Of a stretch of DNA of 64,000 bases, positions 12,766 through 21,430 are shown in pieces. Each line of letters starts with the position of its first letter. Position 1 is the first letter of the stretch. The DNA comes from Streptococcus dysgalactiae subsp. dysgalactiae (GTDB lineage: Bacteria; Bacillota; Bacilli; Lactobacillales; Streptococcaceae): the NCBI RefSeq assembly GCF_900459225.1, contig NZ_UHFH01000003.1, positions 836,501 through 900,500 of the forward strand. Direction: 5' to 3'. The position numbers and the translations under genes are program-made. The notes beneath the pieces were generated by a model that was not told the origin of the DNA, made no database searches, and saw only the letters and a list, made by a program, of their open reading frames with translations.

Positions 12766-13023
12766 TGACATTTTTAGATGTTAATTAAGCAGTAGTAACT
12801 TTATAAGAAACATAACCACCCGTTAGACGGGTGGTTTGAACAAGGGCTATAAGTCCCTATTACCAGCCAGTGCCTAAAGACGCTGGCTTTCACTTTGTTC
12901 AAGCCTTATCGCTTTTGACTCGTTACAGACCTCTTAAAGAGGTGTTTGCATTACTTGCCCCTATCCCTAAAGGGATCTTCTGAAAAGGCAACACTTTTCT
13001 GTACAACATTTATAAAGTGTTTT

Positions 13024-13838
13024 CTAGGCAATTAATCTTTTAGTCATTGGTGTTTGGTAGTTGAGACTACCATGAATGCGGTGGTAATTCCACCAATGAA
13101 CATAGTCTTTAGTCTTAAGAGCTAGTTCTTCCAGCGATTGAAAGGTTTCTTGATAAACAAATTCAATTTTGAAAGCACGATACGTACTTTCAGCTACGGC
13201 ATTGTCATAAGGACAACCAGCCTGACTAAGCGAACGTGTGATTCCAAAGGCTTCCAATATTTCATCAATTAACTGATTATCAAACTCTTTGCCACGATCT
13301 GAATGGAACATCTTGACTTTGGTCAGGGCGTAAGGAATGCTTTGAATGGCTTGCTTAACGAGTTCAGCGGTCTTGTGCCAACCAAGAGACAGGCCGATGA
13401 TTTCACGGTTGTATAGGTCAATAATAAGGCAAACATAAGCCCAACGATTGCCTGCACGAACATAGGTTAAGTCAGTGACTAAGGCTTGTAGTGGCCTTTC
13501 TTGCTTAAATTGCCTGTCTAAATGGTTGGGAATAGGGGCTTCATTCTGGCCTCTGGAATGTGGTTTGAAGGTGGCTTTCTGATAAACAGAAACCAAATTG
13601 AGTCGCTTCATAATGCGTCGAATCCGACGACGTGAAAGTGTAATACCTTCGTTATTCAAGCATATTTTGATTTTTCTGGATCCGTATCTGGCCTTACTTT
13701 CGAGAAAAATAGCTTTGATATTTTCTTCAAGTTTCCGCTTCAGAGACTGGTTTAACAGCCTTGTAGTAATAGCTAGAACGAGGAATGTTCAACCAACGAC
13801 ACATGGCTGAAATGCTATAGTTATCCTTATTAGCAGTG
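13024..13838 (-). pseudogene. IS3-family transposase OrfB, one-base frameshift
   Basis: The C-terminal 211 residues are intact and include the full DDE core (TDLTYV, FHSDRGKEF, NAVAESTYRAFK). The N-terminal piece reads NYSISAMCRWLNIPRSSYYY, then meets a stop after SEAET near 13730. Removing one A from the GGAAACTT run at about 13731-13733 joins it to ELEENIKAIFLESKARYG in one frame. A single inserted base therefore separates the helix-turn-helix end from the catalytic part; the element is probably dead unless helped in trans. Confidence 0.85.
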
Positions 13839-13839
13839 A

Positions 13840-14130
13840 TTATTTCCCTTTTTGTGCCATAATCACCGCCGCTTGCTTTAGGATATCTAATTGCATTTCG
13901 AGTTCTTTATTGCGTTTCCTGAGTTCAATCAGCTTCCGCTGTTCATCTGTCAGATTATCAACAGACTTGAATGAACCTGTTGTTTTGGCTTGTCTAACCC
14001 ACTTATCGAAGGTGGAAGGGGTTAGCTCATATTCCTTGATGAGACTGCTACGCTTTCTACCAGCATTGTAAAGATCAACAATTTGTTGCTTAAAATCATC
14101 GGTGAAGTGGCGACGTATTTTTCTAGACAT
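13840..14130 (-). CDS. IS3-family transposase OrfA (helix-turn-helix)
   Basis: 96-residue DNA-binding subunit: an N-terminal helix-turn-helix (FTDDFKQQIVDLYNAG … TPSTFDKWVRQ) and a C-terminal leucine-rich coiled coil (LIELRKRNKELEMQLDILKQ). I chose the ATG at 14130 because AGGAGAA precedes it; an upstream TTG at 14163 has no ribosome site. It ends within a few bases of the orfB frame, where these elements normally use a -1 ribosomal frameshift. Confidence 0.9.
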   Translation of the reverse strand: MSRKIRRHFTDDFKQQIVDLYNAGRKRSSLIKEYELTPSTFDKWVRQAKTTGSFKSVDNLTDEQRKLIELRKRNKELEMQLDILKQAAVIMAQKGK

Positions 14131-14580
14131 ATCTGTTCTCCTATTTTCTTTAGTGTAGAACACTTTATAAATTCTGTCTAGTTTAGTGTAACCTATTCAA
14201 GGTGACCTTCTATTGTCTCAACTCCCTTGTAACTACATATTTTGTGGAGTATCTCACCTAAGCTGCTTCGATATTGATTATAAATGATTTTTCGTCTATA
14301 CTTGGGGGTGAACACAATGTGATAGTTAAAATTTCACTTTGTGTGTGATAAACTATGAGCCTTTTGTGCCATATTTTTCTCCTTTTGCTTTTCAATAGGC
14401 TTGAACACCTTTATTGTATCGCGTTTGGAGATTTTCTTGTACAACATCCGATGCGCACCCGCATAGCAGGTGGTTTATTGTTTCGCACCTATGGAGCGAA
14501 ACGGACTAAAGTCACTAAATGAAACAGCACAGGAAATTGTTGCAGCAAGATGTTATAATAGAGGAAAAGGAGGTTGTGTT

Positions 14581-15777
14581 TTGACAAAAGAGATTCCCTA
14601 TAAAAAAACAATATTAGTTGTATTTTCTATGATTGCTATACTTTTACTAGTTGGATTGATGGATGATTTATTTGCCTTTCAAAAAAGTAGTAAAGCAACA
14701 CAACGAATTGGAAAACAAGATGTAAGGACAGCACAAGTAGTTGCAAATGGGGATATTTTGCTTCATGATGTTTTATATACCAGTGCGGAAAAACCCGATG
14801 GCTCCTATGATTTCACTCCCTATTTTGAATTCGTTAAAGAACGCATTTCAAAAGCTGATTTAGCCATAGGAGATTTTGAAGGAACAATCAGCCCAGACGA
14901 TCCACTAGCGGGTTATCCACTTTTTAATGCTCCGCCTACAATAGCTAATGCTATGAAGGCAACAGGCTATGATGTTGTTGATTTGGCTCACAATCATATT
15001 CTTGATTCTGGCTTAGCAGGAGCATTACATACTAAAAAAACTTTTGAAAAATTAGGTTTATCGACTGTAGGTATTTACGAAAAAAACCGTGAAACAGAAG
15101 ATTTTCTCATTAAAAAGGTTAATGGTATTAACATTGCCATTTTAGGTTATTCCTATGGATATAATGGCATGGAAGGAAATTTAACAGAAGATGAATATCA
15201 AAAACATTTATCAGATTTCAATCAGGACAAAATGAAAACTGATATTCAAAAAGCAAAAGAAAAAGCAGATGTCACAATCGTCATGCCGCAATCTGGCACA
15301 GAATATGCTCTAGAACCAACAGAAGAACAAAAAACCTTGTATCGGTCAATGATTGATTGGGGAGCCGATGTAGTTCTAGGAGGCCATCCTCATGTGGTTG
15401 AACCTGCTGAAGTTATTACTAAAAATCATGAAAAAAAATTAATTATTTATTCTATGGGAAATTTTATTTCTAATCAACGTTACGAAACATTAGGTGACAT
15501 ATGGACAGAGCGTGGTCTTTTGATGGATATAACATTTGAGAAAAAAGATAAGAAAACGATTATAAAAACAGTCAAAGCTCACCCAACAATTGTATTGGCA
15601 AAAGCCAAAAGTACTTTTGCAAAAGAGGGTTACGAACTCTATAACTATAGAACATTAGTATTAACAGATTTTATTGAAGGCGGAAAATACCGAAATCAAA
15701 TTGATTTAGAGACCCAACAAAAAGTGGATATAGCTTACAAAGAAATGGGTCAGCATGTGCAACTTAATTGGAAATAA
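14581..15777 (+). CDS. CapA-like (poly-gamma-glutamate synthesis type) phosphoesterase
   Basis: 398-residue protein with one N-terminal transmembrane anchor (about residues 9-28) and an extracellular calcineurin-like domain. Motifs: ANGDILLHDV, IGDFEGTIS, DLAHNHILD, and VVLGGHPHVVEP with YSMGNFISN. The CapA fold is known from poly-gamma-glutamate export, but streptococci lack the other cap genes here, so the substrate is unknown. The TTG start has AAAGGAGG 7 bases upstream. A TATAAT lies shortly before that, 70 bases beyond the end of the IS200-type remnant. Its original terminator has been split by the nested IS elements downstream. Confidence 0.85.
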   Translation: MTKEIPYKKTILVVFSMIAILLLVGLMDDLFAFQKSSKATQRIGKQDVRTAQVVANGDILLHDVLYTSAEKPDGSYDFTPYFEFVKERISKADLAIGDFEGTISPDDPLAGYPLFNAPPTIANAMKATGYDVVDLAHNHILDSGLAGALHTKKTFEKLGLSTVGIYEKNRETEDFLIKKVNGINIAILGYSYGYNGMEGNLTEDEYQKHLSDFNQDKMKTDIQKAKEKADVTIVMPQSGTEYALEPTEEQKTLYRSMIDWGADVVLGGHPHVVEPAEVITKNHEKKLIIYSMGNFISNQRYETLGDIWTERGLLMDITFEKKDKKTIIKTVKAHPTIVLAKAKSTFAKEGYELYNYRTLVLTDFIEGGKYRNQIDLETQQKVDIAYKEMGQHVQLNWK

Positions 15778-15914
15778 AAATAGGTAATGTTTACCTTTTA
15801 AAAAGAAAGTGAGCTAGATGATGGCACTGAATCCCTAAAATGAGATAAAAGAAAGACACTCCTGTTGAAATCTAGTATGATATGTACCCAGAATCCTGGA
15901 CACATACTTATAAA

Positions 15915-16752
15915 CTAGGCGGAACCCATGGATGTCATCCTGTATTGTACAGGAGGCATCCATTTTGTTTTTGCCTGAATTCTTTTGTTATTGTAATAAT
16001 CAATATATTCCTCAACAGCTCTTGAGAATTCTTCACTTGAGAATTCTTCAAATGAAGAATAGTCTTTCTCATAGCCATAATACATCTCATTTTTTAACCT
16101 TCCAAAAAATGTCTCCATTATACAATTATCATAGCAGTTCCCTTTCCGTGACATAGACTGGACAATACCATGTTGGTGTAATGTATTTCTAAAATAAGGA
16201 TGTTGGTACTGCCAACCTTGATCAGAATGAAATATAAGACCTTCTACTGATGGAAATTTATTGAAAGCTCTATCGAGCATTCTACTTATCTGTTCAAGAT
16301 TAGGACTCATAGATAAATCATATGATATGATTTCATTTGTGTTCATGTCTAAAACTGGAGATATATAACACTTTCCCCATGAAAAATTAAACTGAGAGAC
16401 ATCTGTTGTCCACTTTTGTAAAGGCGCAGTTGTGCTAAAGTTTCTAGCAATAATATTGTCGGCAATCTTTCCTACCTCACCTTTATAGGAATGGTATTTT
16501 TCCTTTGGACGTTTGCCTAATAAACCTTCTTTATGCATGAGACGTTGAACTCTCTTATGGTTCACCTTGTATCCACGATTAATCAGTTCTTGATAGACTC
16601 GTCTAACGCCATATCTACTTTTATTTGAGTCAAAAATACTTTTGATTTCGTTAAGTAACTCTTCGTTTCTTAAAGCAACAGCATCTATCTTGCCAATCTC
16701 GAAATAATAAGTTGATTTGGCTAGGTTTACTGCTTTGAGAAGATATTTTATG
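15915..16752 (-). pseudogene. Transposase OrfB of element B, 5' end cut off by element C
   Basis: DDE integrase of the IS150-like group with all three acidic positions (TDVSQFNF, FHSDQGWQYQ, NCIMETFFGRLK). The gene begins beyond element C: across the ATG duplication the frame continues at 18190 as GYH-IKYLLKAVNLAKSTYYFE. In the piece beyond C, a run of six T on the plus strand at about 18195-18200 puts the upstream IVKELKEK out of frame; five T would restore KELKEKGYHIKYLL. A TTG start inside element C's left end (16781) is an artefact of the insertion. Confidence 0.88.
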
Positions 16753-16790
16753 TGAACTGCACCCCAAAAGTTAGACAACAAATCTAACTT

Positions 16791-17321
16791 TTGGGGTGTT
16801 TTTCTATGAAATTAAGTTATGAAGATAAAATTGAAATCTATCGCTTACGACAACCTGGTTGGACATGGCCTAAAATCAGTCAAACATTTAATATGAGTAA
16901 GTATAACCTTCAATACATGGTCCGCCTTATTGATATACACGGATTGGAAAGTGTTTGTAAAAGGAAAAATAGGTATTATTCTCCTGAACTAAAGCAGGAA
17001 ATCATAAACGAAGTTCTGATGAAAGGTAGGTCTCAGCTAGAGGTTTCTCTAGATTATGGATTACCAAACAAGGGAATGCTTCCTAATTGGATAGCGCAAT
17101 ACAAGAAAAACGGGTATACTATTCTTGAGAAATCAAGAGGGAGACCTGTAAAGATGGGACGCAAACCAAAGAGAAAACTTGAAGAAATGACTGAATTAGA
17201 GCGTCTTCAATATGATAATGAGTACCTTAGAGCGGAGAATGCCGTACTAAAAAAGTTGAGAGAACTCCGATTGAGGGACGAAGCAAGGCTCAAAGAGCAA
17301 CAGAAATCATTCAAGGACTAA
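16791..17321 (+). CDS. IS3-family transposase OrfA of element C
   Basis: 176 residues with two helix-turn-helix segments (YEDKIEIYRLRQPGWTWPKI and a second around EVSLDYGLPNKGMLPNWI) and a C-terminal coiled coil rich in Leu and Arg (MTELERLQYDNEYLRAEN). It binds the element's ends and fuses with OrfB through ribosomal frameshifting. The ATG is 38 bases inside the left end of the element; I prefer the second Met region (MKLSYED) as the true start, since it has the family's usual beginning. Confidence 0.93.
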   Translation: MGCFSMKLSYEDKIEIYRLRQPGWTWPKISQTFNMSKYNLQYMVRLIDIHGLESVCKRKNRYYSPELKQEIINEVLMKGRSQLEVSLDYGLPNKGMLPNWIAQYKKNGYTILEKSRGRPVKMGRKPKRKLEEMTELERLQYDNEYLRAENAVLKKLRELRLRDEARLKEQQKSFKD

Positions 17322-17356
17322 TCAATGTATTTGATTTAAGAATCCTACTTAATATT

Positions 17357-18154
17357 TTGAAGCTGTCTCGATCAACCTACTATTATCAGGTTAAACGTCT
17401 AACTCAGGGAGATAACAACAAAGAATTAAAAGAAGCTATTCAAGATATTTATTCTGAGAACAAAGGGAGATATGGTTACCGTAGAATTCACCTCGAACTT
17501 AAAAATCGAGGCTATAAAGTTAATCATAAGAAAGTTCAACGTTTGATGACAGAACTTGGTTTGAAAGCTAGAATCCGTGCGAAACGTCGCTATAACTCTT
17601 ATAAAGGTGAGGTTGGCAAGAAAGCTGATAATCTCATTAAGCGTCAATTTAAAGCTACCCAACCACTTAAGAAGTGTTATACCGATGTCACAGAGTTTTC
17701 AATTCCTGCTAGTGATCAAAAATTGTATCTATCACCAGTTCTTGATGGCTTTAACAGTGAGATTATTGCATATCATTTATCTACCTCGCCAAACTTACAA
17801 CAACTTAAAACGATGCTTTCCGAGGCTTTTCCTGAACAAACTTACCAGGGCACTATTTTACATAGTGACCAAGGATGGCAATATCAACACACTTACTACC
17901 ATCATTTTCTTGAGGTGCATGGAATGAGACCGTCCATGTCGCGTAAAGGAAATAGCTTAGATAACGGCATGATGGAATCTTTTTTTGGAACATTGAAGAC
18001 AGAAATGTTTTATGGGTTTGAGAAGGAATTTACTTCCCTCGAAACATTAAAAACAGCTATTTCAGAATATATCAACTACTACAACACTAAACGAATCAAA
18101 CTTACATTAAAAGGACTAAGTCCTGTGCAATACAGAACTCAATCCTTAACTTAA
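17357..18154 (+). CDS. IS3-family transposase OrfB of element C, intact
   Basis: 265-residue integrase: the KLSRSTYYY helix, HTH_21 region (NKGRYGYRRIHLELKNRG), and DDE core TDVTEF, LHSDQGWQYQ, NGMMESFFG. The frame is open upstream of the TTG into orfA (ATEIIQGLINVFDLRILLNI), in a different frame from orfA. The natural product is therefore likely an OrfAB fusion made by frameshifting near the end of orfA. Confidence 0.93.
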   Translation: MKLSRSTYYYQVKRLTQGDNNKELKEAIQDIYSENKGRYGYRRIHLELKNRGYKVNHKKVQRLMTELGLKARIRAKRRYNSYKGEVGKKADNLIKRQFKATQPLKKCYTDVTEFSIPASDQKLYLSPVLDGFNSEIIAYHLSTSPNLQQLKTMLSEAFPEQTYQGTILHSDQGWQYQHTYYHHFLEVHGMRPSMSRKGNSLDNGMMESFFGTLKTEMFYGFEKEFTSLETLKTAISEYINYYNTKRIKLTLKGLSPVQYRTQSLT

Positions 18155-18273
18155 AATATAATGTCCAACTTTTGGGGGTCACTTCAATGTGATATCCTTT
18201 TTTCTTTAAGTTCTTTGACGATTGCCGCTTTTTCGCCTTGAGTAGCGCAGTTCCTTTTTGTGTCTCAAGGCGA

Positions 18274-18747
18274 TTAATTTTTTATTGCTTCATTTTCTGT
18301 TTTTAAATAGGCTGTTTCAGCTCTTAATCTTATTAATTCTTCTCTCTCTGTAGGCGTTAAATCAACTGGCTTATATTTTTTAGTCATAGGCGGTTCCTTT
18401 TTCCTTCGGCGACCTCTTTTAAGGTTCAATCCTTCATACCCTTTTATTTTATATATTTGAACCCATTTAGACAATAGTCCAGTATCAATACCCGCGTTAA
18501 TTGCAACACTACTTTGAGATTCTCCAGAGAAGACACGTGCAACTAGCTCATATCTTTCTTCAACTGTACGATTTTTAGATGATTTTGAATGTTTTAGAAA
18601 ATCAAAACCATGTATTTCCGCAGTTTTTGACCATCGGACAATTCTTTTTCTAAAGTTTTTTTGCCCGATACCAACTGGAGTCTCTATCCACTGACCTGAA
18701 CGATACATGTTTACTGCATTTAATTTAAAATTATAATTATATTTCAT
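18274..18747 (-). pseudogene. Transposase OrfA of element B, premature end by poly-A slip
   Basis: 157 residues with two helix-turn-helix blocks (YNFKLNAVNMYRSGQWIETP; ERYELVARVFSGESQSSVAI) and a coiled coil (TEREELIRLRAETAYLKTEN). It ends …EAIKN at 18274. In a +1 frame the coding continues INRLETQKGTALLKAKKRQ as in full-length relatives. The change maps to an A6 run (minus strand) just before the stop; five A would restore the frame. Together with the second slip in orfB, this shows element B was probably already inactive or decayed further after element C landed. Confidence 0.78.
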
Positions 18748-18822
18748 ACAAAAACCCCTTTCACTGGATTAGTCCAGTAAAAGGGGTACATATCAGTAAA
18801 CTAGAAACAGGAGTGTTTTATT

Positions 18823-19113
18823 ATGGTTAAAAAAGCATATTCATGGGAAACTAAGCTTGCTTGCATCGAGATGAAGAAAGGAGGCAAGTCTAACAGAGTT
18901 ATTATGGAGATACTAGGTATCAAAAATGATAGTCAAATCTATATTTGGATGAAATGGTACGAAAACGAGGAGCTTTATCGTTTCCATCAAGGTGTTGGCA
19001 AGCAATATACTTATGGTAAAGGCTTGGAACATCTATCTGAAGTGGAACAATTACCATTACAAGTTGACCTCTTAAAAAAGTATCGAGGCTTGATAAGGAA
19101 ATCGATAAAGTAA
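18823..19113 (+). CDS. IS3-family transposase OrfA of element A
   Basis: 96-residue helix-turn-helix protein (SWETKLACIEMKKGGKSNRV … SQIYIWMKWYENEELYRF) with a Leu-rich C-terminus (QLPLQVDLLKKYRGLIRK). The ribosome site AGGAGTG lies upstream of the ATG. The orfB frame starts 14 bases after its stop in another frame. It lies only 28 bases inside the point where element B entered, so element B just missed the gene. Confidence 0.9.
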   Translation: MVKKAYSWETKLACIEMKKGGKSNRVIMEILGIKNDSQIYIWMKWYENEELYRFHQGVGKQYTYGKGLEHLSEVEQLPLQVDLLKKYRGLIRKSIK

Positions 19114-19127
19114 GTCTTATCAAGCTT

Positions 19128-19955
19128 GTGGAAGACTATAAAAACAACCACCAGATAGCTGTCATTCTAGACTGTTTTGACGTCAAACGGTCGACTTATT
19201 ACCGTTGGAAAAAGGAGTATGAGAAGCCGCAAAAAAAAGATGATGTCATTGAATTAATTGAACAGCTCTGCATGGAGAATCACTTTATTTATGGCTATCG
19301 TACCATTACACGATTGCTCAAAAAGATCCACGGATTGACTGTTAATACAAAGAAAGTCTATCGTATCATGAAAAATAATGGCCGGCTTTGTCGGACACGC
19401 ACCAAGAAAGTTCCCAATTTGGGTAAAGCTTATGATTTAACAGATAACAAATTGAGTCGGGATTTCCATTCCGATAAGCCTATGGAAAAGCTTGTAACAG
19501 ATATTACCTACCTATATTATTTCGGTAACTGTAAATTGTATCTCTCATCAATTATGGATCTCTATAACCGAGAAATGATAGCTTACACTATTTCAGAGTG
19601 TCAGGACACGGATTTTTTACTAGACACCCTTAATCAGTTAAAATTGCCTAAAGGAGCACTCTTACACAGTGACCAAGGCTCAGTGTATACTTCTATGGCT
19701 TACTACCAGGCTTGCACGGAAAAAGGCATTATCTGCTCAATGTCTCGAAAAGGAACACCTGCAGATAATGCCTGTATTGAATGATTTCACTCCGTCCTAA
19801 AGACTGAAACCTTTTATCTCCATAATAGGAGAAAATACAACAAAGATAGTATAACAAATATTGTTAAAAATGACATTACATTTTATAATGAAACTAGACT
19901 TCAACAGAGATTAAACGACCAGTTTTCTGTACTGTACAGAAAACTGGTCGCCTAA
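19128..19955 (+). pseudogene. Transposase OrfB of element A, nonsense mutation just after the DDE glutamate
   Basis: Residues 1-218 are intact with TDITYLYYF, LHSDQGSVYTS and DNACIE. The next codon is TGA (19782-19784) where related proteins have TGG (Trp, in the pattern IEWFHSVLKTE). The same frame then continues FHSVLKTETFYLHNRR … RLNDQFSVLYRKLVA to a normal TAA at 19953-19955. All three acidic residues precede the stop, but the C-terminal helix is lost, so the enzyme is very probably inactive. Confidence 0.88.
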
Positions 19956-20011
19956 AAGTGTTTTTCTTACGTCCCACTATTAGGGTGCAGTGCCGATAGC
20001 TCACTTTCTTT

Positions 20012-20926
20012 TTATGAATTAATAAACTGTGATAGAATCCACTCTTCGAAACGTTTTGAATCTACATCCATGCAGACTTTTTTAGTTTCTAAAGTCTTTG
20101 AAACAGGTTCGTAGGCTGAATTAGTGATAATTGCTCCAGTAGCAAGGCCATCAGTAATGACCCGCAAATACTTCTCTTGGATGGTAAATAAATCAGGCTG
20201 TGTCAGGTAGGCAATGGTACTGGCATCATGAATTGTCATCCCCATATCCAAGCTAGGTCCCCCATAATTTTCAAAGAGATGGTAGAGCATTTCTCCTATA
20301 CGACCAGAATCCTTTATTTTTAGAGCGGTTTCTCTGTAGAGAAGAGCTTTTTCTGTCACATCTAAGCCAATCATAGTTAACGGAATGTCTGATTTAAAAA
20401 CAAGATCTGCAGCATGAGGGTCACTAGCTATGTTAAATTCTGCTAGTGAAGAAGTATTTCCTCCGTGTATAGCCCCTCCCATCATAATAATTTCGGAGAT
20501 GTGATTTTTTATATCAGGATACATAGCAAGAAGTAAAGCAAGATTGGTCATAGCACCAATGGATACAATACTAATATCTTTAGAATGTTTTAAGATGGTT
20601 TGTCGCATGGCTTCTACAGCATGAATATCTAAAGGTTTTTGCTTTGGATTTGGAAAATCGTATCCATCCATACCAGTTTTACCATGTATGCTTGGTATAG
20701 TTTTTAAATCTTTTAATAGAGGTTTTTCAGATCCTCGAGCGACAGGAAGATTTGCTTGCATAAATTCTACTAATTTTAAAGCATTTGTTGTCGCTTGATC
20801 AACGGTAACATTTGCTCCGACAGTTGTTATCAGACAGACATTAATTTTAGGGTGCATTAAAGCAAGTATAATAGCAGTAGCGTCATCAATACCTGGATCA
20901 GTATCGATAATAATATTTTTAACCAT
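20012..20926 (-). CDS. Inosine-uridine type nucleoside hydrolase
   Basis: Cytosolic Ca-dependent hydrolase that splits ribonucleosides into base and ribose for salvage. Diagnostic residues are the N-terminal IIIDTDPGIDDATAI with the clustered metal aspartates, VSIGAMTNLALLLAMYP, MMGGAIHGGNTS with AEFNIASDPHAADLVF, and a C-terminal Asp region (HDASTIAYL). The length of 304 residues is usual. I use the ATG at 20926 (AAGGA 7 bases upstream) rather than the GTG at 20941, which is part of the ribosome site. Its stop codon overlaps the right arm of the split terminator. Confidence 0.93.
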   Translation of the reverse strand: MVKNIIIDTDPGIDDATAIILALMHPKINVCLITTVGANVTVDQATTNALKLVEFMQANLPVARGSEKPLLKDLKTIPSIHGKTGMDGYDFPNPKQKPLDIHAVEAMRQTILKHSKDISIVSIGAMTNLALLLAMYPDIKNHISEIIMMGGAIHGGNTSSLAEFNIASDPHAADLVFKSDIPLTMIGLDVTEKALLYRETALKIKDSGRIGEMLYHLFENYGGPSLDMGMTIHDASTIAYLTQPDLFTIQEKYLRVITDGLATGAIITNSAYEPVSKTLETKKVCMDVDSKRFEEWILSQFINS

Positions 20927-21039
20927 ATTAATTTCCTTCACCTTTCATAAGCTACTTTGATATTACCATTTTAATAAGAATCTGAAAATAGTTAGGTGAT
21001 TATCTCTGTTAAATATATTCTTTCCGAAAGTTGTCAAGT

Positions 21040-21430
21040 CAAGTGCAACCAGTTCATAGATAACTAGATTTCCATAGGTTAAGCTATTCGAGATAGCTCA
21101 AACAGGAATTTTGAGGATTGATATTGAAGAGGTCGTCTTGGGCGCTCATTGATGGCAGTAATATCAATGTCAAGTTCTTCAGAGGTTAGTGGATTAAGTG
21201 AGACTCCTTTAGGGACATATTCTCTGAGGAGGCCATTGAAGTTCTCGTTTGTTCCTCTCTCATGTGAAGAGTAGGGATGTGCAAAGTAAACTTCAACAGC
21301 TTCTAAGGTTGAGAGTAAACTAAACTCAGAACCATTATCCGCTGTGATGGATGCAATAGGATACTGACTAATGGGATACCTGATAGCACGGTTACTAGTA
21401 GAATTAATGTTAGACATGTTCATCTGCTTT
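21040..21430 (-). mobile_element. IS30-family remnant
   Basis: Only the 3' end of an IS30-type element remains, between the nucleoside hydrolase and rplU. A possible end lies near 21041 (AAGTGCAACC), resembling IS30-type termini. The opposite end is lost, and the sequence from about 21430 is already the rplU upstream region. Confidence 0.7.
21079..21423 (-). pseudogene. IS30-family transposase, C-terminal fragment
   Basis: 114 residues with the second Asp of the DDE triad (SITADNGSEFSLL), the Glu region (ERGTNENFNGLLREYVPKG), and the family's C-terminal LTSEELD … NERPRRPLQYQSSKFLFE. The N-terminal helix-turn-helix and first Asp are missing. The apparent ATG start is in residual sequence, not the natural one. 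Non-functional. Confidence 0.85.

Follow-up and report, generated by a model that had tools for sequence, protein, structure and literature searches.

Three nested IS3-family insertion sequences in a Streptococcus dysgalactiae terminator and a probable preference of their families for terminator loops

We analyzed a 64,000-nucleotide stretch of the Streptococcus dysgalactiae subsp. dysgalactiae genome (RefSeq assembly GCF_900459225.1, contig NZ_UHFH01000003.1, positions 836,501 to 900,500; here called the window), in which three IS3-family insertion sequences (IS), A, B, and C, lie one inside another (C in B in A) within an intergenic terminator hairpin. We propose, with a probability of roughly 72%, that A, B, and C belong to IS3-family groups that prefer the loops of intrinsic terminators and carry terminator-like hairpins in their own leaders, which would explain the nest except for the insertion of C into B. 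Four features read from the sequences carry this proposal: the geometry of the insertion sites, their contrast with those of a control element, the leader hairpins, and a second site at which B lies in A. We regard a nest of this kind as ordinary in itself and see the interest in the target rule, in its control, and in the leader hairpins that match it.

The nest and its insertion points

The host genome is 2.15 Mb in 3 contigs, and the nest is flanked by two converging genes, one CapA-like and one for a nucleoside hydrolase (Table 1). We re-read the ends and target duplications of the elements from the sequence, and the three-deep nest with readable GAT, GTA, and ATG duplications described in an initial annotation of this DNA held up after small coordinate corrections. 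That annotation placed A in the loop of a perfect 16-bp terminator; the hairpin and the loop position are as described, but each arm has 18 complementary bases (100%), not 16. Removing the elements does restore the clean hairpin claimed between the converging genes: when a 95-base stretch of the reconstructed empty site is folded (-28.6 kcal/mol), all 18 pairs form, around a loop of 5 bases.

In a profile search, A, B, and C all matched the IS3 family transposase model NF033516, with all three OrfB proteins above the cutoff, in agreement with their earlier family assignment. Each has the two open reading frames (ORFs) of this family, with the DDE integrase core (Pfam rve) in OrfB, and each has terminal inverted repeats and a 3-base duplication (GAT for A, GTA for B, ATG for C). 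OrfB identity is 52% between B and C, which refines the earlier assignment, 36% between A and C, and 29% between A and B. As first annotated, C is the only element that looks intact and is located in the orfB of B: the ORF at 15915-16781 is broken by C at the ATG duplication, and A orfB is truncated by an in-frame stop.

The insertion point of B is in the loop region of A's own leader hairpin, just upstream of A orfA. In the uninterrupted A leaders of the same genome (L009 and L010), this hairpin is followed by T-rich DNA and folds at about -24 to -26 kcal/mol. We found a second case of B in A in genome G193, where one contig ends in B after the first 55 bases of an A and another starts in B, followed by the rest of an A. 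The left junction of B in A is identical to that in the window, and the duplication is AGTA in G193 and GTA in the window; as B occupies the same nucleotide of A but has another duplication, the G193 insertion is probably independent of the window's. The flanks of the two G193 A pieces (AAGGATAGGG and CCCTATCCTT) are complementary, so the pieces very likely belong to one locus, at another terminator. The nested A of G193 shares 99.3% identity with the uninterrupted A of G078 and 95.6% with the window's A, a difference of 4.4% between the two nested copies. Two independent B insertions at one A nucleotide are the simplest reading of these junctions.

Other copies of the elements are present in the same genome. 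Outside the nest, A is found uninterrupted at L009 and internally deleted at L010, and B is found uninterrupted at L014, where long complementary arms with A and T tracts lie on either side (stem score, 45.0). C has ten further full-length copies (99.58 to 99.86% identity), along with a split copy, two internally deleted copies, and a fragment. The window's nested A is 99.5% identical to L010 over 612 bases.

The initial annotation took the order of arrival to be fixed as A, B, C, which does not follow, as nesting fixes the order only if each element moved singly. Part of the nest could have been made elsewhere and jumped here as a composite, giving a different local order. Each element retains both ends and a duplication, and it is general knowledge that a nested IS with intact ends could move by means of the transposase of another copy. 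Such movement is countered by uninterrupted, nearly identical copies of A (L010) and B (L014) in the same genome and by the lack of a second composite copy in the genome search, and we regard it as quite unlikely. DNA searches covering 59 relatives and 18 chosen genomes found no empty orthologous site, and a protein search of genome contigs with the nucleoside hydrolase returned only 7 distant loci and no such site. In G071, the one relative with clear synteny, an additional gene separates the two genes that flank the nest here.

Insertion sites and leader hairpins across the genus

We searched 247 genomes of the same genus for the three elements and found matches, fragments and distant relatives included, to A in 98, to B in 125, and to C in 227. 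Partial copies, copies split into several matches, flanks shorter than 40 bases, and repeats of one site were left out of the counts. For C, with flanks taken from part of the listed copies, best-scoring first, 114 full copies gave 96 distinct sites; 17 copies of A gave 15 sites, to which the window and L010 copies were added by hand (17 in all), and 3 copies of B gave 2 sites, to which the window and L062 copies were added (4 in all). The control was D, another IS3-family element of the window, surveyed in the same way, with matches in 66 of the 247 genomes. C, first intended as an untargeted internal control, was dropped and D used instead because C copies also proved to lie in terminators. 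A site passed our strict test if it had an A-tract on the left, a T-tract on the right (each by a 5-of-6 rule), and a stem score of at least 22 around the insertion.

The strict test was passed by 13 of 17 A sites, 3 of 4 B sites, and 53 of 96 C sites, in contrast to none of 27 D sites and none of 400 random points, all taken from the window (Fisher P = 1.8e-8 for C versus D and 4.6e-8 for A versus D). The stem score alone exceeded the 97.5 percentile of the random points at 12/17 A, 4/4 B, 60/96 C, and 0/27 D sites, and it was at least 22 at 62 of the 96 C sites. True flank pairs had a mean score of 26.1 for C, compared to 18.0 when flanks were swapped between sites (0 of 2,000 permutation means above 19.7), and of 28.4 for A, compared to 18.8 (no permutation mean above 24.7). 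Thus, the signal does not come from the tracts alone. In the base composition at C-family sites, A is most frequent from -14 to -19 and T from +12 to +19, so the insertion is centered, and the median loop at the insertion was 4 bases for A (n = 13), 6 for B (n = 4), and 6 for C (n = 62). A gene 3' end lay within 120 bp of 32 of 38 C sites, 10 of 12 A sites, and 5 of 26 D sites. Of the C sites, 66 of 96 had an exact 3-base duplication, as did 8 of the 15 A sites. We therefore placed these elements in a working class of terminator-targeting elements, defined by having most copies, unlike the control, in a loop flanked by A-tract, stem, and T-tract. The earlier description of the nest as repeated landing in IS DNA is correct as to the nested insertions but incomplete, given that B lies in the loop of A's leader hairpin and that all three families favor terminator loops compared to the control.

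An orientation rule, with the T-tract always downstream of the transposase, was suspected from the first copies and then dropped, because tract lengths at C sites are unbiased (right longer at 35, left longer at 35, equal at 26) and the pattern of A-tract left and T-tract right is inherently symmetric.

To score the leaders, we examined the transposase-proximal end of each element for a hairpin that has at least 9 pairs and is followed by a T-rich tail. Such a hairpin was found in 52 of 61 distinct C leaders, 13 of 14 A leaders, and both B leaders, and in none of 27 distinct leaders of control D. An independent terminator scan of the window gave 7 hits, compared to 2.4 expected, including the C leader, the B leader, and a hairpin at the right end of A. 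The terminal repeat of C itself includes the left arm of C's leader hairpin. According to PMC2965389, terminators located ahead of IS transposase genes, among them those of IS3-family elements, block IS expression in transcribed regions; their link to the insertion target seems to be new.

These observations suggest elements that seek hairpins and themselves present new ones. The target would be a hairpin preceded by an A-tract and followed by a T-tract, with insertion taking place in its short loop, and each element would present a terminator-like hairpin of its own at the transposase-proximal end, just before orfA. In the window, A would have entered the intergenic terminator loop, split that hairpin, and supplied a new one, the A leader hairpin, whose loop B would then have entered. 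Judging by the positions of resident copies, the transposase probably chooses the site, and what it reads may be the palindrome or the shape of the DNA there, not RNA. We infer that the leader hairpins really terminate transcription, in which case they would replace the broken terminator and keep read-through out of the transposase gene.

Table 1. Features of the nest and its surroundings (window positions)
Feature	Positions	Strand	Basis
Intergenic terminator hairpin, left arm	15799..15816	+	18/18 complementary to 19997-20014
GAT duplication of A, left copy	15820..15822	+	re-read junction
Element A, IS3 family, ISLmo1-like, contains B and C	15823..19994	+	ends GGCACTG..CAGTGCC; transposase pieces match NF033516
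A leader hairpin, left arm, separated from right arm by B	15853..15866	+	inverted repeat; uninterrupted form in L009, L010; fold
GTA duplication of B, left copy	15875..15877	+	re-read junction
Element B, IS3 family, IS150-like, contains C; ORFs on minus strand	15878..18795	-	ends TGATATG..CATATCA; uninterrupted copy L014
B orfB, broken near 5' end by C	15915..16750	-	ORF 15915-16781 extends slightly into C; Pfam rve, HTH_21
ATG duplication of C, left copy	16750..16752	+	re-read junction
Element C, IS3 family, IS150-like, apparently intact	16753..18186	+	ends TGAACTG..CACTTCA; ten other full-length genome copies
C leader terminator-like hairpin	16759..16799	+	terminator scan: 17 pairs, 7-base loop, T tail; fold -28.5 kcal/mol
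C orfA	16791..17321	+	ORF, Pfam, NF033516 search
C orfB (DDE integrase core)	17357..18154	+	ORF, Pfam, NF033516 search
ATG duplication of C, right copy	18187..18189	+	re-read junction
B orfA	18274..18747	-	ORF, Pfam
B leader terminator-like hairpin, upstream of B orfA	18754..18787	-	terminator scan: 15 pairs, 4-base loop, T tail; fold -25.7 kcal/mol
GTA duplication of B, right copy	18796..18798	+	re-read junction
A leader hairpin, right arm, then T-rich DNA and A orfA	18806..18819	+	inverted repeat; fold
A orfA	18823..19113	+	ORF, NF033516 search
A orfB, in-frame stop leading to early end	19128..19784	+	ORF, Pfam, NF033516 search
Hairpin near A right end	19911..19955	-	inverted repeat; terminator scan, minus strand
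GAT duplication of A, right copy	19995..19997	+	re-read junction
Intergenic terminator hairpin, right arm	19997..20014	+	complementarity to 15799-15816
CapA-like gene (PGA_cap), upstream of nest	14470..15777	+	ORF; Pfam PF09587, E 8.9e-74
Nucleoside hydrolase gene, converging on nest	20012..20941	-	ORF; Pfam PF01156, E 1.2e-84
Control element D, another IS3-family element outside nest	12981..14199	-	survey; Pfam

Opposing evidence and alternative explanations

Several results weigh against a terminator-loop preference. The C-in-B site of the window fails the strict test (stem score, 16.5; no A-tract; T-tract present), and so this step is left unexplained by hairpin targeting. In the window's own genome, only 3 of the 11 C sites listed passed the strict test and 6 of 11 reached the stem score, and 43 of the 96 C sites overall failed, some perhaps because they have decayed and some because they plainly lie elsewhere. 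Beyond the genus survey, a C-like copy in S. equinus (L250) failed on the A-tract, a B copy in L. salivarius (L240) failed at least one part of the test, and E. coli IS150 and Klebsiella ISKpn8, named relatives of C, passed at none of 11 distinct sites, which means that IS150 itself does not have the trait. The leader test was also passed by shuffled leaders (C, 26/400; A, 3/140; B, 2/20; D, 11/270) and by only 4 of 7 named copies from outside the window, E. coli IS150 not among them. The G193 nest spans two contig ends, which puts its middle outside the sequence. Finally, swapped flanks still pair fairly well because of their A and T tracts, and the tracts thus supply part of the signal.

This last point bears on a reading in which the transposase recognizes not a hairpin but symmetric AT-rich DNA, where an A-tract and a T-tract lie about 30 bp from each other and contribute their bend, so that terminators are hit through their tracts. 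Runs of at least 4 A on the left and of at least 4 T on the right are each found at 87 of 96 C sites, more than the 62 with a stem score of at least 22, and the lack of bias in the longer-tract side also fits. We nevertheless consider it unlikely, in that true flanks pair better than swapped flanks that retain the tracts, and stems with little tract are also hit, such as that at L021, where C lies in a stem scoring 30.0 with neither tract by the 5-of-6 rule.

Survivorship, in which insertion is widespread and selection leaves only the copies between genes at terminators, would draw on gene 3' ends being tolerant places, and IS3 is listed among the families overrepresented between converging genes in a large published survey (PMC9208149). 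Control D, however, had 0 of 27 sites at terminator loops and only 5 of 26 near gene 3' ends in our own survey; moreover, selection would not center insertions in the loop or put B twice at one A nucleotide, which makes this explanation very unlikely. We give even less credence to chance, that is, to three unrelated landings by the IS-in-IS insertion that is generally known to be common. The failure of the C-in-B site in the terminator test agrees with chance, which may account for that step alone. Otherwise, the family-wide enrichment speaks against it, the A and B sites are both hairpin loops, and a second B would reach the same nucleotide of the 1,251-base A with a probability of about 1 in 1,251, orientation ignored.

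Copies beyond the genus and related systems

Matches to the nest were also found in an S. dysgalactiae phage and in plasmids of S. salivarius. From the A-like plasmid matches, we fetched 6 of 25, picked for differing species and sites; from a search with C OrfB, 4 of 40 (H6, H7, H10, and H22); and from the E. coli copies, 12 of 30. The A-like copies in named records passed the strict test in 6 of 6 cases, from Listeria (ISLmo1, two sites), Macrococcoides, Staphylococcus hominis, Bacillus subtilis, and Priestia. It was also passed by a C-like copy in Lactobacillus amylovorus and by B copies in phage Javan118 and in G191 (L170).

By pairwise OrfB identity, C (52% to IS150) and B (52% to C) belong to the IS150 group, and A is ISLmo1-like (OrfB 54% identical, with similar GGCACTG.. 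ends). C OrfB is 52% identical to that of IS150 and 53% to that of ISKpn8 over 99% of its length, and the ends of these IS150-group elements (TGTACTGCACCC..) resemble those of C (TGAACTGCACCC..). IS150 differs in the location of its E. coli copies at hok genes (9 of 12 records), in its failure, with ISKpn8, of the site test, and in having no terminator-like leader hairpin; the strict test and this location do not support it as a further terminator-targeting case. ISLmo1, both fetched copies of which lie in terminator-like hairpins (L242 and L243), differs from A in its host order, its single annotated ORF, and a leader hairpin that fails the strict leader test.

A broader generalization is that at least two IS3-family lineages in Firmicutes, IS150-like in streptococci and ISLmo1-like in several orders, are specialized terminator-loop parasites that seek a terminator, split it, and substitute their own leader terminator. 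Insertion would then be nearly neutral for the host gene, each element would be a target for the next, and nests would be built by rule. We hold this more tentatively, at slightly less than even odds. If true, it would provide a target rule for widespread IS3-family elements; account for their build-up between converging genes, for nesting, and for IS abundance in a small genome at low cost; and offer a ready system to ask whether a DDE transposase can select DNA by hairpin shape. It would also call for caution, as an IS-borne terminator may stand in place of the one seen in a related strain.

Palindrome insertion has been described for the IS3-family elements IS1397, ISKpn1, and ISPsy8 (PMC1525189). 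These target one family of repeats, the repetitive extragenic palindromic (REP) sequences or palindromic units (PU), while the stems hit by A, B, and C vary between sites and did not form one repeated palindrome family, although no search aimed at REP families was made. Insertion into terminators had been called a known preference of some IS families, a statement that we could not confirm for IS in the literature. It is documented in PMC3898094 for group IIC introns, which likewise recognize a DNA hairpin such as that of a terminator but are RNA-based retroelements that, by the title of a paper cited there, insert after terminators, whereas A, B, and C are DDE-transposase IS that insert in the loop. 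Like the leader hairpins, the 5' terminators of IS known as mobile attenuators (class 1) lie ahead of transposase genes, IS3 family included, but the passages of PMC2965389 call IS insertion nearly random and do not describe terminators as targets. We found no report of IS3-family elements targeting terminators in a search of an open-licence literature library, and earlier reports may exist.

We made several additional observations on these element families. At L037 (G030) and L038 (G171), an A-family element begins directly after a C-family terminal repeat and leader, perhaps another leader-hairpin nest; the right flank of L037 lacks the other arm. One internal deletion pattern of the A family (query 13-494, then 1030-1155) recurs in G094, G097, G101, G138, G170, G171, G209, and G245 and probably goes back to a single old insertion that was inherited. 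The A leader hairpin alone (approximately query 28-102) matches many genomes without the rest of A, perhaps in other IS elements with a similar leader. The window's B orfB has a 15-base direct duplication (16021-16050) without counterpart in the B copies L060, L171, and L241, as judged from 15-base alignment gaps (L014 was compared with L059, L060, L171, and L241). Positions 1-626 of the window (L026) are part of another internally deleted C copy, with flanks that by eye resemble terminator arms (aaaaaggag and ctccttttt).

The hok toxin-antitoxin genes adjoin the IS150 and ISKpn8 copies (L248, L249, and L252 to L263) in both plasmid records (L248 and L249) as well as in the E. coli records counted above, and many of these copies have GCCCC on one side and GAGGC on the other. 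On a Lactobacillus amylovorus plasmid (L251), a C-like IS3 element in a terminator-like hairpin adjoins an annotated erm(A) gene. Downstream of the nest, positions 21079-21423 of the window are a transposase fragment, which we take to be IS30-like and whose parent element has many copies in genome G125.

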